This document shows, piece by piece, positions 9,560 through 21,460 of a DNA stretch of 64,000 nucleotides. The DNA lies in contig JANQKC010000018.1 of assembly GCA_028281325.1 (NCBI GenBank), forward strand, positions 62,001 through 126,000, given 5' to 3'. Below the pieces are notes generated by a model, which ran no database searches, had not been told where the DNA came from, and saw only the letters and a list, made by a program, of their open reading frames with translations. Numbering within the stretch: position 1 is the stretch's first letter; each line of letters starts with the position of its first letter. This DNA is from Alphaproteobacteria bacterium. GTDB taxonomy: Bacteria > Pseudomonadota > Alphaproteobacteria > UBA8366. The position numbers and the translations under genes are program-made.

Positions 9560-9626
9560 ATAAAGTATAATAAGACCAATTGCGAGCCCAAGGGCAACGA
9601 CCCACCGGGCGCCGGGAGCGTAGGTG

Positions 9627-11030
9627 ATGAGCAAGCCTCGAACATTGTTCGAAAAGATTTGGGATAGCCACGTCGTCGATGTCGAACCGAACGGCACATG
9701 CCTGCTCTACATCGACCGGCATCTCACCCATGAGGTGACGACGCCGCAGCCCTACGAGGGCTTGCGCCAGGCGGGCCGTCCGGTGCGCCGGACCGATGCG
9801 ACCCTCGCGGTGATCGACCATAACATCGCGACCGACCGCAGCGAGGGCATCCCCGAGGATTCGCAGCTCCAAATCGACACGCTGATCAAGAACTGCGAAG
9901 ATTTCGGCGTCGAGTTGTTCCACTTCGACGACGTGCGGAACGGCATCGTGCATATCATCGGGCCGGAGCAGGGTTTCACCCTACCGGGCACGACGTTGGT
10001 CTGCGGCGACAGCCACACGGCGACCCATGGCGCGTTCGGCGCGCTGGCCTTCGGCATCGGCACCTCCGAGGTAGAGCATGTGTTGGCGACGCAGACGCTC
10101 ATTCAGGCGCCGGCCAAAAGCATGCGCGTTACCGTCGACGGCGCGCTGCCGTTCGGCTGCACCGCGAAGGACCTGGTCCTCGCCATTATCGGCAAGATCG
10201 GCACCGGCGGCGGCACTGGCCATGTCATCGAATACGCCGGGCAGGCGATCGAGGACCTGTCGATGGAAGGCCGCATGACAGTCAGCAACATGACCATCGA
10301 AGCCGGCGCGCGCGCGGGCCTGATCGCGCCGGATGAAAAGACGTTCGAATTTCTGAAAGGCCGGCCGATGTCGCCCAAGGGCGAACAGTGGGATCGGGCG
10401 GTGGCGTTTTGGAAGACGCTGCCGTCGGACCCGGGCGCGCAATACGATAAAGAGGTCACGCTCGACGTGTCGGAAATCGTGCCGCAGATCACCTGGGGCA
10501 CCAGCCCGGAAGACGTTATCCCGATCACCGGCACGGTGCCGGACCCGAAGTCCGCGGAAAGCAACGACAAGCGCGACAGCATGCAGCGCGCGCTGGACTA
10601 TATGGGGTTGACCGCCGGAACCAAGATGACCGACGTGACGATCGACCGCGTCTTCGTGGGGTCCTGCACCAACGGCCGGATCGAGGATATGCGCGCGGTC
10701 GCCGCGGTGGCGGAAGGCCGCAAGGTGGCCGACGGCGTGCGCGCGATGATCGTGCCGGGGTCGGGCCTGGTCAAGCAGCAGGCCGAGGAAGAAGGCATCG
10801 CCGATATCCTGAAGGAGGCCGGCTTCGAATGGCGCGAGCCGGGCTGCTCGATGTGCCTGGCGATGAATGTCGACCGGCTTGAGCCGGGCGAGCGTTGTGC
10901 GTCCACGACGAACCGGAACTTCGTCGGCCGGCAGGGTCGCGATGGACGCACGCATTTGGTGAGCCCGGCCATGGCCGCTGCGGCGGCGGTGACGGGCCGA
11001 TTTGCCGACGTACGGGAGCTGATGGAATAA
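9627..11030 (+). CDS. leuC: 3-isopropylmalate dehydratase large subunit, copy 1
   Basis: Aconitase-family subunit that with LeuD isomerises 2- and 3-isopropylmalate in leucine synthesis. The [4Fe-4S] ligands are present: [10 protein letters not shown] (about residue 348) and GCSMCLAMN (about residues 408-411). Active-site segments [14 protein letters not shown] and [14 protein letters not shown] are canonical. Of 467 residues, the usual length. The ATG at 9627 has GGGAG about ten bases upstream; a GTG at 9624 would add one residue. Directly following rplS, it holds the position where leuC sits in related genomes, so it is the best candidate for the ordinary enzyme. Two further leuC genes follow leuD. 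A TATAAT at 9567-9572 may be a weak promoter. Confidence 0.93.
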
Positions 11031-11032
11031 CA

Positions 11033-11257
11033 ATGTCGTCCGATGCAATGAAGAAACCGGCGGGTGCGCCGCCGGAAGCGGAAAAGAAACTCGAAGGGAT
11101 CGACCGGCTGTTCGGCCGGGACGTTCGCAGCGCGGGCTGGGTCGTGGATTCGGCGGCCGGCGGCGCGCAGGACAGGATAAACGAACGGCGCGCGGGCTTC
11201 GGCGATGACGCGCCGGACCCGGCGGTGATCTGGGCGCTTCGCGGCCGGCGCCGGTAA
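11033..11257 (+). CDS. Small hypothetical protein between leuC and leuD
   Basis: A 74-residue hydrophilic product ([20 protein letters not shown], then [14 protein letters not shown] and a basic end WALRGRRR). No domain recognised. It starts two bases after the leuC stop and ends 20 bases before leuD, so it is carried within the leucine operon and likely cotranslated. There is no signal peptide or membrane segment. It does not contain the conserved C-terminal YGDWE motif of the SDH assembly factor family (DUF1674), which small proteins in similar settings sometimes have. Tight spacing in the operon is the main support for coding. Confidence 0.6.
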
Positions 11258-11277
11258 AGCGGATAGGAGAGGCGAGC

Positions 11278-11889
11278 ATGGAAAAATTCACGAAACTGTC
11301 GGGCGTCGCGGCGCCGATGGACATGATCAATATCGATACCGATCAGATCATTCCGAAACTGCATCTCCGCACGATCAAGCGCACCGGGCTCGGCAAGGTC
11401 CTGTTCGATGAGTTACGGTTCACGCCCGACGGTACCGAGATTCCGGAGTTCATCCTGAACCAGGAGCCGTACCGCAACTCGAAGATCATCGTCGCCGGCG
11501 ATAACTTCGGCTGCGGCTCGTCGCGCGAGCATGCGCCCTGGGCCTTGCTGGATTTTGGCATCCGCTGCGTCATCTCGACCAGCTTCGCCGACATCTTCTA
11601 CAACAACTGTTTCAAGAACGGCATCCTGCCGGTCACCGTGACCAAGGACCAATTGGACGCGTTGATGGCGGACGCGGCGGACCGCGAGAATCCGGAACTG
11701 ACCGTCGATCTGGAAACCCAGACGATCACGCGGCCGAATGGCGCCACGGTATCGTTCGAGATTGACGAATTCCGCCGCGAGTGTCTGTTGAACGGACTCG
11801 ACGATATCGGCCTCACGCTGCAGAAGGTGGAGAAGATCGACAGCTTCGAGGCGCAGCAGCGCGAGAGCCAGCCCTGGCTGTACCGCTAG
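11278..11889 (+). CDS. leuD: 3-isopropylmalate dehydratase small subunit
   Basis: Swivelling domain partner of LeuC, 203 residues, the normal length for the bacterial LeuD. Key segments are [20 protein letters not shown] near the start (substrate-recognition loop), then [20 protein letters not shown] and [19 protein letters not shown] lies six bases before the ATG. It is the only small-subunit gene in the window, so if all three LeuC proteins are made they must share it, use a partner encoded elsewhere, or work alone. Followed 22 bases later by the second leuC. Confidence 0.95.
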
Positions 11890-11911
11890 AGCGCGCGGCA
11901 GAACAGACGCG

Positions 11912-13321
11912 ATGACCACGCCCCGCACCCTGTTCGATAAGATTTGGGACAGCCATCTTGTCGATACCCTCGATGATGGGCTGAACATTCTCTATATCGA
12001 CCGGCACCTCCTGCATGAGGTGCTGTCGCCGCAGGCCTTCGAAGGGCTGCGGATGGAAGGCCGCACCGTCCGCCGCACGGAAGCGACGCTCGCGGTCGCC
12101 GATCACAACGTGCCGACCACGGACCGCGGCAAGGGGATCGAAGACCCGGAATCGCGCCTGCAGGTCGAAACGCTCAGCATCAACTGCAAGGAATTCGGCG
12201 TGCCGGTGTTCGACATGCTGGACCCTCGGCAGGGTATCGTCCATGTGATCGGCCCGGAACAGGGCTTTACGCTGCCCGGCGCGACGGTGGTGTGCTGCGA
12301 CAGCCACACCGCGACGCATGGCGCGTTCGGCGCGTTGGCCTTCGGCATCGGCACGTCCGAGGGCGAGCATGTGCTGGCGACGCAGACGCTGCGCACCTCC
12401 AAGCCCAAGAACATGCGGGTCTTGATCGACGGCTCGCTGCCGGTCGGCTGCACGGGCAAGGATTTGATCCTCGCCATCATCGGCGAAATCGGCACCGCCG
12501 GCGGCACCGGTCACGTCATCGAGTTTTGCGGCCAGGCGATCCGCGACCTGTCCATGGAAGGGCGGATGACGGTCAGCAACATGACCATCGAGGGCGGGGC
12601 GCGCGCCGGCCTGATCGCGCCGGATGAAAAGACCTTCGAATATCTCAAGGGCCGGCCGATGGCGCCGAAGGGCGCGCAATGGGAAGCGGCGGTCGCCTAT
12701 TGGAAGACGCTGCCGTCGGATGAGGGCGCGGCCTACGATCGCGAAATCAAGATCGACGTTTCCAATATCGCGCCGCAGGTGACCTGGGGCACCAGCCCCG
12801 AGGATGTCGTGCCGATCACCGGCCGCGTGCCTGACCCCAAGGATGCGGGAAGCGACGCCAAGCGCAGCGCGATGAAGCGCTCGCTCGACTACATGGGCCT
12901 GACCCCGGGCACACCGATGACCGAGATCGAGATCGACAATGTCTTCATCGGGTCCTGCACGAACAGCCGGATCGAGGACCTTCGGGCGGCGGCGGATATC
13001 GTCAAGGGCCGCAAGGTCGCCGACCGGGTCACCGCAATGGTCTCGCCGGGCTCGACGATCATCAAGGAACAGGCGGAAGACGAAGGCCTCGACCGCGTCT
13101 TTATCGAGGCCGGGTTCGAATGGCGCGAGGCCGGCTGCTCCATGTGTCTCGGGATGAACCCGGACCGGGTGCCCGCGGGCAAGCGCTGCGCCTCCACGTC
13201 GAACCGCAACTTCGAGGGACGGCAGGGCCGGGACGCCCGCACCCATCTGGTCAGTCCGGCGATGGCCGCGGCGGCGGCGGTCCATGGCCGTCTCGTCGAC
13301 GTGCGCGACGCCGACGCGTAA
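11912..13321 (+). CDS. LeuC-family large subunit, copy 2 (substitutions near the active site)
   Basis: A 469-residue homologue of 3-isopropylmalate dehydratase large subunit. All cluster ligands remain ([19 protein letters not shown]), so it should bind a [4Fe-4S] cluster. It differs from copies 1 and 3 and from the E. coli protein at two otherwise fixed places: [12 protein letters not shown] has Cys129 instead of Gly directly before the Asp-Ser-His, and GTSEGEHVL has Gly151 instead of Val. Both lie in segments that line the active site of aconitase-fold enzymes. It may be a second isopropylmalate isomerase or may act on another 2-alkylmalate; function not assignable. It starts 22 bases after leuD and ends five bases before copy 3. 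Confidence 0.88.
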
Positions 13322-13325
13322 TCCT

Positions 13326-14741
13326 ATGGCTGACGCACCCCGCACGTTGTTCGACAAGATCTGGCAGGCGCATGTGGTAACGCCGCCGGAATCCGACGGC
13401 ACGGCGTTGATCTATATTGATCGGCACCTCATCCACGAAGGAACCACGCCGCAGGCGTTCGAAGGCTTGCGCATGGCCGGACTGCCGGTGCGCCGTCTCG
13501 ACGCAACGATGGCCGTGGTCGATCACGTGGTGCCGACGGTCAACCGCGCCGCCGGCATTTCCGAGGAAACCTCGCGCATGATGGTCGAGGCGATGGTGCG
13601 CAACTGCGCCGACTTCGGCGTCGAACTCTTCGACATGTTCGACGCGCGCCAGGGCATCGTGCATGTGGTCGGACCGGAGCAAGGCTTCACCCTGCCGGGG
13701 ACGACGCTGGTCTGCGGCGACAGCCACACGGCCACGCATGGCGCGTTCGGCGTCCTCGCCTTCGGCATCGGCACGTCCGAGGTCGAGCATGTGCTCGCGA
13801 CGCAGACGCTGCTGCAGCAGCCGATGAAGACCATGCGCATTTCGGTCGAGGATGAGCTGCCGGCGGGCTGTACCGCGAAAGACCTCGTGCTGGCGATCGT
13901 CGGCAAGATCGGCGCGGCCGGCGGCACCGGTTACGCCATCGAATATGCCGGACCGGGCATCCGCACCCTGTCGATGGAAGGGCGCATGACCGTCTGCAAC
14001 ATGACGATCGAAGCGGGTGCGCGCGCCGGCATGATCGCGCCGGACGACACGACCTTCGACTACCTGAAAGGCCGCCCTTTCGCGCCGCAGGGAGACGATT
14101 GGGCGCGCGCCGTTGCTGCTTGGCGGCAACTGCCGAGCGATGATGGCGCCCGCTTCGATCGGGAGGTCCGGTTGCGCGGCGCCGACATCGTACCGCAGGT
14201 GACCTGGGGCACGAGCCCCGAAGATGTCGTGCCGGTGACCGGCGTGGTGCCCGACCCGGCCGATGCGCCAAACGAGGGAAAACGCCAATCCATGCGCCGG
14301 GCGTTGGACTATATGGGCCTGACGGCGGGGATGCCGATCACCGATATCGCGGTCGACCGCGTGTTCATCGGGTCCTGTACCAACAGCCGGATCGAGGATC
14401 TGCGGAGCGCCGCGGGGGTGGTTGCGGGGGGGCGTGTCGCGGATACGGTGAAAGCGATGGTCGTACCGGGGTCCGGTCAGGTCAAGGCGGCCGCCGAGGC
14501 CGAAGGCCTGCACCGGGTCTTCGAAGAGGCGGGTTTCGAATGGCGCGAGCCCGGCTGCTCCATGTGCGTCGGGATGAACAACGATTTGATCGGGCCGCAG
14601 GAACGCTGCGCTTCCACATCGAACCGCAACTTCGAAGGACGCCAAGGGCGCGGCGGGCGGACCCATCTGGTCAGCCCGGCCATGGCGGCCGCGGCGGCGC
14701 TGGCCGGCCGGTTCACCGACGTGCGCGGGTCCGCGCGATAG
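13326..14741 (+). CDS. LeuC-family large subunit, copy 3
   Basis: A third complete LeuC-family protein of 471 residues. Cluster cysteines are in [10 protein letters not shown] and [23 protein letters not shown] and [12 protein letters not shown] are canonical. It diverges from copies 1 and 2 mainly in residues 55-95 and 255-300 (for example [13 protein letters not shown] and [18 protein letters not shown]). The ATG at 13326 starts five bases after the stop of copy 2 with no clear Shine-Dalgarno sequence, so translation may depend on copy 2. A gap of 91 bases separates it from leuB. Whether it serves leucine synthesis or a related hydratase reaction cannot be decided from sequence alone. Confidence 0.88.
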
Positions 14742-18570: not shown

Positions 18571-19440
18571 ATGACCGCCGTCGACCGCCCCCGCCGCAGC
18601 ATGCTCTATATGCCCGGCTCGAACGCCCGCGCTTTGGAGAAGGGCCGCAGCCTGTCCTGCGACGGCATCATTTTCGATCTGGAAGATGCGGTCGCGGTCG
18701 ATGCCAAGGAGACCGCGCGAACGCAAATCGCCGCGGCTCTGGCCGCCGGCGGATATGGCGACCGCGAATTGCTGGTCCGCGCGAACGGGCTCGACTCCGA
18801 CTGGGGGGCCGCGGACCTCGCCGCCATCGCATCGATGCCGGCGCACGGGGTCCTGATGCCAAAGGTGGAGACCCCGGAGACGGTGCAGGCGGTCGACCGG
18901 CATCTGTCCGATGCCGGCGCGCCGGACGGGCAGACGATCTGGTGCATGATGGAAACGCCGCGCGGCATTCTGCGGGCTGCCGAAATCGCTGCCGCGAGCC
19001 GCCGCGTCGCCGGCTTCATCCTCGGCACCAACGACCTCGCGTTGGACTTGCGCTGCCGGCAAACGCCGGACCGGCTCCCTTTCATGACGAGTTTCGGGCT
19101 CTGCATCCTAGCGGCGCGCGCGCATGGGATCGCGGTCATCGATGCGGTGTACACGGACCTGGACGACATGGACGGGTTCGCCGAGTCCTGCCGCCAGGGG
19201 CGCGATCTCGGCTTCGACGGTAAGTCGTTGATCCACCCCAAGACCATCGACATAGCCAATGCCCTGTACGGTCCCAGCCCAGACGAGGTCGCGTGGGCCC
19301 GGAAACTCGTTGCCGCGTACCGCGCCGGTCAAGCGGAAGGGAAGGCGGTGATCGTGGTCGACGGCCAAATGATCGAAGACCTGCATGTCCGAGAAGCGGA
19401 GCGATTGCTCGCGATGGCGGATAGCGTTTCGGCATCGTAG
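18571..19440 (+). CDS. HpcH/HpaI aldolase / citrate lyase beta (CitE)-family protein
   Basis: A 289-residue TIM-barrel protein of the CitE/malyl-CoA lyase group, enzymes that cleave or hydrolyse malyl-CoA-like CoA esters with Mg2+. Visible family segments are RSMLYMPGSNARALEKG, DGIIFDLEDAVAVDAKETAR, the Mg2+-binding Glu in WCMMETPRGIL, GTNDLALDL and FDGKSLIHPKTIDIAN. The group contains L-malyl-CoA/beta-methylmalyl-CoA lyase, (3S)-malyl-CoA thioesterase and citramalyl-CoA lyase; the sequence alone does not separate these. It stands alone with its own promoter. A second, distant CitE-like protein is encoded at 40298-41173. Confidence 0.85.
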   Translation: MTAVDRPRRSMLYMPGSNARALEKGRSLSCDGIIFDLEDAVAVDAKETARTQIAAALAAGGYGDRELLVRANGLDSDWGAADLAAIASMPAHGVLMPKVETPETVQAVDRHLSDAGAPDGQTIWCMMETPRGILRAAEIAAASRRVAGFILGTNDLALDLRCRQTPDRLPFMTSFGLCILAARAHGIAVIDAVYTDLDDMDGFAESCRQGRDLGFDGKSLIHPKTIDIANALYGPSPDEVAWARKLVAAYRAGQAEGKAVIVVDGQMIEDLHVREAERLLAMADSVSAS

Positions 19441-19597: not shown

Positions 19598-19626
19598 TTG
19601 AGAAACGAAAAACAGGTTGATATAAG
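19598..19626 (+). promoter_or_regulatory. Strong promoter for the structured RNA candidate
   Basis: TTGAGA (19598-19603) and TATAAG (19621-19626) have an ideal 17-base spacer, preceded by an AT-rich stretch (19540-19600) that resembles an UP element. The expected start is about 19631-19634, at the beginning of the folded segment. Confidence 0.6.
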
Positions 19627-19630
19627 AAGG

Positions 19631-19722
19631 GCGTCGAGTATGTGTTCCGGAGTTGGTGGGACCACCAGATCACATCTGTACCGCGAACGGTACGCTCGAC
19701 GCCCTTCCGAGCCCTACGGCTC
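19631..19722 (+). ncRNA. Unrecognised structured RNA, three-way junction
   Basis: The segment folds into nested perfect helices. The closing helix pairs 19626-19638 (GAAGGGCGTCGAG) with 19695-19707. Inside it are ATGTG (19640-19644) with CACAT (19671-19675), enclosing TGGTG-GGAC-CACCA (19654-19667), and a second arm GTACCG-CGAA-CGGTAC (19678-19693). A separate hairpin GAGCC-CTAC-GGCTC follows (19709-19722). A very good promoter lies immediately upstream. No open reading frame with a ribosome binding site starts here. It does not match what I remember of tmRNA, RNase P, 4.5S or 6S RNA, nor a known riboswitch. The 3' end is uncertain because no T-rich terminator follows. Confidence 0.55.
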
Positions 19723-20380
19723 TGGATCGTGAAAGCAGACTTCCGCAACACCGACCCGACATCCGGCAGACACCCTGGCGACGACGCTGCCGGTGCGGGC
19801 TGGTCAATACGACCGCGGCGACCATCATGTCCCGCTCTGTCGCATTCCTTCCGGATACGCCCATAACACAGCGACGCCAAGAGACGATGCTGTCTGCGTT
19901 CCGCCGTTCTCAAGGACAGTCAATATCTCGCGACATCAACCCCCCGTTCGGAGCGCATCGCTGCGGCGCCGAACTTCTGTCCCCCGCCAGGCACAGGGAG
20001 GCAACCGACGGGAGCCGGCGGAACCCGCGATGAGGTCATCGGACCCTCGAAAGGAAATCCTGACGCGGTCGGCGCGTGTCGAATTGACGCATCGCTTCCC
20101 GATCCTCCGCCGCGGCGGTCCGCATCCCGGCGAAACCGGGACGGGCGCCGTCGCGTCGCCCGATGCCGTCGGCCGATTGGCCCGAAAGCCATGCACCGCC
20201 GGCATCGACATCGCGTAAGCGAACCGGAAATCCACCCGATGTCGCAGCGAAGTGCCCGCAAAAGCATCCCCACGCGCCATCGTTAGGACCCTTAGCCGGG
20301 CCGGGCTTGTCCGAAGACGCCGCCGCGACCCCAGAAATCTCAACCAGCACTGTCGCTCAATTCAGCCTGCCCGAAGGCGG
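19723..20380. other. Non-coding stretch, no gene recognised
   Basis: About 660 bases of GC-rich sequence. Open frames occur on both strands but have no ribosome binding sites, overlap one another and give Arg/Pro-rich translations without recognisable domains. A short hairpin CCCGG-CGAAA-CCGGG lies near 20131. No tRNA, known RNA or repeat family was seen. Confidence 0.5.
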
Positions 20381-20650
20381 GTTTGATATCAAACGGCCAT
20401 GCTTCAACGCTGAGATTTCAGCGCTTCCACGTACCAGGGTAATAGTGGAATGAGGTTGAAAAGATGTCCATAATAAAAAGCCGGCATCTAAGAAAAAATT
20501 GTGAATAAAACAAAGAGAAAATCACAAGATATCCACACTTTATCCACAATCTTTTCCACAGAACATGAATATTTTTTATCTGTCCCTAGTATTCGCAAGT
20601 ATATAGCATCATGATCTTATCTATGCCATAGGGTTTTAAGGAAATTTCCA
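20381..20650. other. AT-rich DnaA-box cluster: candidate replication origin or DnaA-binding locus
   Basis: Four DnaA-type 9-mers occur within 61 bases: TTATTCACA on the minus strand (20500-20508), ATATCCACA (20529-20537, one mismatch), TTATCCACA (20540-20548, perfect) and TTTTCCACA (20552-20560, one mismatch). The last three share one orientation and are 11-12 bases apart, about one helical turn. An AT-rich segment (20561-20640) that could unwind follows. A perfect 14-base palindrome GTTTGATATCAAAC (20381-20394) and a hairpin CGCTGA-GATT-TCAGCG (about 20408-20424) flank it. No gene lies here. Against an origin, the ribosomal-protein operon to the left is read toward this site. dnaA itself is not in the window. 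Confidence 0.5.
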
Positions 20651-21016: not shown

Positions 21017-21460
21017 ATGACGTATATTAATCAAGCCACGGCGCAGGTAGCGAGAGGACGTATGGATACGGGAAACAGGCCCCTTTCACCGCATTTGCAG
21101 GTGTATCGATGGCAATGGACGATGGCGCTTTCGATCATCCATCGCGCTACGGGAATTGCGCTGGCGGTCGGCGCCTTGCTGATGGTCTGTTGGCTGGTAT
21201 CGGTGGCGCAAGGCGCGGAAGCCTACGCGTCGCTCAATGCGTTTCTGTCGTCCTGGATTGGTCGGTTGATGCTGTTCGGCTGGACCTGGTCGCTGCTCTA
21301 TCACCTCGCGAACGGCATTCGCCATCTGGCGTGGGACGCCGGCAGCGGCCTAGAGTTGGACGCGGCGCGCACCACCGGCTACGCGGCCGCGGCGTTCTCG
21401 GTTGTCGCAACGATCGCCCTCTGGGCGGCCGTCTATACCATGACGGGGGCCTTCTCATGA
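21017..21460 (+). CDS. sdhC: Succinate dehydrogenase cytochrome b556 subunit
   Basis: Membrane anchor of complex II that binds haem b and quinone. The 147-residue protein has the family start NRPLSPHLQVYRWQWTMALSIIHRATG and three membrane helices at about residues 38-62, 75-97 and 118-145. The haem-ligand histidine is in LLYHLANGIRHLAWD. The ATG at 21017 has GGAGAG six bases upstream. An in-frame codon at 20987 would add ten residues without a ribosome site. Its stop overlaps sdhD (ATGA). Confidence 0.95.
   Translation: MTYINQATAQVARGRMDTGNRPLSPHLQVYRWQWTMALSIIHRATGIALAVGALLMVCWLVSVAQGAEAYASLNAFLSSWIGRLMLFGWTWSLLYHLANGIRHLAWDAGSGLELDAARTTGYAAAAFSVVATIALWAAVYTMTGAFS

Follow-up and report, generated by a model that had tools for sequence, protein, structure and literature searches.

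A Cluster of DnaA Boxes Upstream of sdhC

Does the cluster of DnaA boxes that precedes sdhC in this alphaproteobacterial genome mark the chromosomal origin, as the first-pass annotation proposed, or does DnaA have some other use for it? The window analyzed here comprises 64,000 bases (62001-126000) of contig C6, which has 132,946 bases in a genome of 41 contigs. Within 61 bp it contains four boxes that match TTWTNCACA with at most one mismatch, at 20500 (-), 20529 (+), 20540 (+) and 20552 (+), with the starts of the three (+) boxes 11 and 12 bp apart. The cluster is real, and its positions, its span, the three boxes in the same orientation and their spacing are all as first claimed. Additional one-mismatch boxes lie near the array at 20465 (-) and 20690 (-). 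The 5.117-Mb genome contains 67 perfect boxes, and nowhere else do three of them fall within 100 bp; the chance expectation for box triples within 61 bp is ~1.6e-5. The stretch holding the array (20440-20640, unstranded) has an A+T content of 68%, against 36% for the window, which bears out the A+T-rich setting originally described.

The upstream boundary of this intergenic region is a citE-like gene (HpcH/HpaI aldolase by Pfam; 18571-19440, +). Downstream of the array, Pfam identified sdhC, sdhD, sdhA and sdhB in that order, with sdhC (21062-21460, +; Sdh_cyt, 5e-35) as the first gene of sdhCDAB. The array is located ~500 bp upstream of sdhC and on the same strand. Between the end of the citE-like gene at 19440 and the sdhC ATG at 21062, 1.6 kb are without a convincing gene, in agreement with the gene-free region noted originally, and Rfam gave no match to a known RNA in this gap, even at E up to 1. 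A candidate structured non-coding RNA was nevertheless noted in this gap, downstream of the citE-like gene and ahead of the array (19600-20040, +). Its closing stem has 13 bp (19626-19638 with 19695-19707) and its folding z-score is -4.2; the candidate is 90% identical in G003, a genome of the same genus, where the stem carries apparent paired changes (GAG/CTC to GGG/CCC), and outside the genus it has short weak matches only, in G001 and G055. Elsewhere in the window (9624-14741, +), three large leuC-like ORFs (isopropylmalate dehydratase large subunit) were recognized by eye from their translations, with one leuD-like ORF, also assigned by eye, between the first and second.

Conservation and Geometry of the Array

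Genomes of the order and class were searched with a three-box pattern, consisting of an inverted box, 31 bp, and two tandem boxes 3 bp apart, and the reversed pattern was used as a control. With up to 3 mismatches, the pattern matched 17 of the 43 genomes of the order, once each, and with up to 2 mismatches it matched 14 of 386 genomes of the class; the reversed control had zero matches in the genomes listed for the order and likewise in those listed for the class. When the matches were aligned, two CACA cores that had not been part of the search became apparent in an 11-bp register (positions 24-27 and 35-38), along with an A/T tract that precedes the inverted box. The final alignment was free of gaps and included 27 arrays over 72 columns. 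It revealed a layout of one inverted box followed by four head-to-tail boxes that are separated by 2, 2 and 3 bp.

In the genome studied here, Box 1 is the inverted box (TTATTCACA; 20500-20508, -; array positions 1-9), in which T, G, T and A of TGTGnATAA are invariant at positions 1, 2, 3 and 6 across the 27 aligned arrays. The adjoining A/T tract (20492-20497, unstranded; positions -7 to -2) has a conservation of ~0.8-1.1 bits per position. Box 2 (AAAATCACA; 20518-20526, +) is a weak box with conservation limited to its CACA core at positions 24-27; each base of this core is nonetheless conserved at 96-100% although it lies outside the search pattern, which identifies Box 2 as a member of the array. 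Box 3 (ATATCCACA; 20529-20537, +) also lies outside the search pattern and has kept its CACA core at positions 35-38. Box 4 (TTATCCACA; 20540-20548, +) and Box 5 (TTTTCCACA; 20552-20560, +) occupy positions 41-49 and 53-61.

In 24 of the 29 order genomes examined, a profile of the array, scored with each genus left out in turn, located it upstream of sdhC at a distance of 167-590 bp, and its strand was that of sdhC in every case. Scores ranged from 7 to 63 bits, compared with a null maximum of -9.9 (268 1.5-kb bins of contig C20), and downstream controls were all below -16. Among 143 genomes of the class, the profile recovered eight strong matches (>=41 bits), namely the genome studied here, G020 from its order and six genomes of six other families. 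With the exception of G043, these lie just upstream of sdhC, where weak matches in G148 and G149 and pattern matches in G049 and G329 were found as well. The array recurs in at least 8 further alphaproteobacterial families, mostly at sdhC, and a full copy is absent from most of the class genomes sampled; all of these genome counts refer to sequences related by descent and not to independent events. In part of the class, the array is thus an element of long standing that is present as a single copy. The window as a whole has about as many boxes as chance predicts (30 against 26.9 expected, 0-1 mismatch), as a chance cluster in an A+T-rich gap would have it, but many families conserve the array in the same register and the control had zero matches, which refutes that reading and leaves it a negligible probability.

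Position of the Array Relative to the Chromosomal Origin

In alphaproteobacteria, hemE is the usual marker of the origin. The first-pass annotation stated that dnaA and hemE are both missing from the window, and this was confirmed, with dnaA on contig C14 and hemE on C20 (384604-385617). It had also proposed to look for a GC-skew minimum at the site; the skew of C6 is positive on both sides (+0.030 to the left and +0.037 to the right). On C20, all 20-kb bins of the 385 kb that lead to hemE have negative skew (mean -0.028), whereas the 16 kb beyond hemE are slightly positive (+0.008). KOPS-like octamers, a second signal of polarity, were too sparse at the sampling used to add much.

Complete genomes of relatives point the same way. 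The skew of G012, from the same order, switches at 620-630 kb, which is the site of hemE (626 kb), and in this genome of 4.36 Mb sdhC lies at 3.99 Mb. In G021, also of the same order, the switch, at ~1.78 Mb, coincides with hemE (1.777 Mb), with skew that is noisy at the 10-kb scale, and sdhC is at 2.62 Mb. The two genes are thus 0.8-1.0 Mb apart in G012 and G021. The distance between hemE and sdhC in G023, taken from gene positions only, is 0.86 Mb. G069, a member of another family, has hemE at 31 kb and the full array at 704 kb in a mostly positive arm, where skew is weak and partly mixed. Across these four complete genomes, hemE is separated from the array or sdhC by 0.67-1.0 Mb.

Divergent boxes next to a stretch rich in A+T do have the usual look of an origin. 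However, C6 has no skew switch, and hemE is elsewhere, at the switch in relatives, so the origin reading fails; the array is almost certainly not the chromosomal origin, and we regard it as highly improbable that it belongs to that origin or to a second one. This exclusion draws on skew and hemE position as proxies in a genome that is not closed. The headline claim of the first-pass annotation is therefore not supported, while its fallback, a DnaA-titration or DnaA-regulated locus, is favored by the comparative evidence.

On the hemE side, the intergenic region in this order combines DnaA-type boxes with a separate conserved core. In the genome studied here (C20, ~385.6-386.0 kb) and most of the order, this core consists of GGGATnAAATTTAATCCCC followed by a stretch rich in CAAC and a run of A+T-rich DNA, and it could serve as an origin marker. 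Box density alone would misplace the origin of the genome studied here at sdhC, ~15-23% of the chromosome from hemE in complete relatives.

DnaA as the Predicted Binding Protein

The recognition helix of the DnaA DNA-binding domain, GRKFGGRDHTTVMHAV, is identical in ten cleanly read dnaA copies (this genome and nine relatives). Given the same helix, the boxes are predicted to be read by ordinary DnaA. In E. coli, gaps of 2-3 bp favor cooperative head-to-tail binding of DnaA (PMC8682772), and the array has several TTWTNCACA boxes at gaps that permit such binding. We consider it very probable that the array binds DnaA.

A variation in box sequence was observed in genera g11 and g12 (G017, G018, G020, G021, G023 and G024), where several boxes shift together from CCACA to CAACA, towards TTATCAACA. 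The DnaA recognition helix is unchanged in those genomes of the two genera where it was read (G017, G020, G023 and G024), and an altered DnaA specificity for the CAACA boxes was accordingly ruled out. A change in the boxes while the DnaA helix stays constant is what might be seen if a protein other than DnaA, such as a dedicated respiration regulator, bound the TTATCCACA-like word. Against this, DnaA arrays have the same consensus, the same 11-12-bp register and the same combination of strong with weak boxes, and the last box remains near TTATCCACA in both g11 and g12; binding by another protein is accordingly unlikely. Second, more distant proteins with a Bac_DnaA_C (domain-IV-like) match of 39-84 bits occur beside normal DnaA in G017, G018, G069 and G328.

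Comparison With Known DnaA-Binding Loci

In E. coli, the clusters of DnaA boxes at datA and DARS serve to inactivate or reactivate DnaA, and the minimal datA comprises several boxes that assemble ATP-DnaA (PMC5742627). The array shares with datA, the locus of DDAH, where hydrolysis of the ATP bound to DnaA is promoted, the character of an intergenic DnaA-box cluster outside oriC, present once per chromosome (PMC5742627). However, datA depends on an IHF site placed between its boxes, and, unlike in datA and DARS2, none is conserved at the array; the box geometry and neighboring genes also differ, with the array profile scoring at best -14.6 on the datA region. Among 23 array loci, the exact IHF consensus was found once (0.56 expected). 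Matches with one mismatch numbered 22 in the same 23 loci, compared with 9.4 expected, but these mostly overlap the boxes and have no single place. A datA-like identity was ruled out by the lack of a conserved IHF site in the box cluster.

The cores of DARS1 and DARS2 have one box opposite two tandem boxes 12 bp apart, a spacing common between the sites (PMC5742627). In DARS the boxes converge (DARS1 locus +608, -622 and -634), whereas those of the array diverge at a distance of 40 bp and enclose two additional weak boxes, and a DARS-like core was rejected on this difference in orientation. At E. coli oriC, the half-arrays (R1 leftwards; C3-C2-I3-R4 rightwards) resemble the array in their divergent orientation and strong end boxes, and in weak boxes whose short gaps accommodate head-to-tail DnaA (PMC5742627). 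The array is much shorter, however, is located neither at a skew switch nor at hemE, and any unwinding element in it would be putative. The alphaproteobacterial oriC in the hemE region likewise has DnaA-type boxes beside A+T-rich DNA, but it lies elsewhere in the same genome, at hemE on C20, and its core in most of the order, TTTAATCCCC plus CAAC repeats, is absent from the array. Across the E. coli oriC, datA, DARS and sdhC regions, the best score of the array profile was -0.1. We infer that the array resembles a DnaA-oligomerizing regulatory locus; it is a member of neither datA nor DARS.

Operator of sdhCDAB or Self-Acting Locus

The position of the array also suggests a local function, in which DnaA bound there would be a transcription factor for sdhCDAB and the array its upstream operator, tying the TCA cycle or respiration to the replication cycle. 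In line with this are the short distance and constant strand in 24 of the 29 order genomes, and the adjacency to sdhC in other families. The array has also kept its place near sdhC and its orientation in genomes with altered upstream genes (G006, G021, G162 and G138). Other observations are at odds with an operator. The distance between array and sdhC varies more than threefold, and other genes have come to lie between intact arrays and sdhC. The perfect array of G012 is 5.9 kb from sdhC with MBOAT-like and chemoreceptor-like genes (identified by eye) between them, and in G328 a perfect array lies 3.7 kb away with intervening genes on both strands. In G043, where the array is second-best by score, sdhC is not within ~9.7 kb. 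Furthermore, a scan of the array region with the sigma-70 consensus found no promoter, which is weak evidence, and short physical linkage would by itself keep array and sdhC together.

The integrity of the array where it is parted from sdhC (G012, G328 and G043) supports a locus that acts by itself, while the mostly short distance and fixed orientation fit a promoter element equally well. As linkage over a few hundred bases persists without function, we lean towards a self-acting locus, and hold with about even confidence that its role lies in the control of replication and not of sdh; an operator of sdhCDAB is a credible but distinctly less probable explanation.

Proposed Role and Implications

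The only clustered boxes in the genome, with a conserved rigid geometry and an origin that lies elsewhere, favor a DnaA array outside oriC. Both DnaA binding and a role in replication control are read here from sequence. The inverted anchor box and the four head-to-tail boxes may nucleate a short, ordered DnaA filament, most likely of the ATP form, on a single-copy locus whose outer boxes are near consensus and whose two inner boxes are often reduced to CACA. At roughly 0.7-1.0 Mb from the origin in complete relatives, the locus would be duplicated some time after initiation. It could then act as a sink or nucleotide-state switch for DnaA that damps re-initiation, a role likened to that of datA or of DnaA-box clusters elsewhere. 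With confidence a shade short of even, we propose that the array is a DnaA-oligomerization locus away from oriC, likely controlling free or active DnaA.

DnaA-binding loci that tune its activity from outside the origin, datA and DARS, are well described in E. coli. We know of no accepted counterpart of datA or DARS in alphaproteobacteria, not even in Caulobacter, a model for the cell cycle. The part of the open-access literature covered contained no report of alphaproteobacterial DnaA boxes at sdhC, and the array is probably a previously unrecognized control element. An array that occurs once per genome, with near-invariant spacing in many families, offers a concrete candidate counterpart that can be deleted. 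More tentatively, we suggest that in many alphaproteobacteria a single-copy DnaA-oligomerization locus outside oriC, with a geometry different from that of datA and DARS and no IHF site, may set the level of active DnaA, and that its ancestral place at sdhCDAB may also tie respiratory metabolism to the timing of replication.
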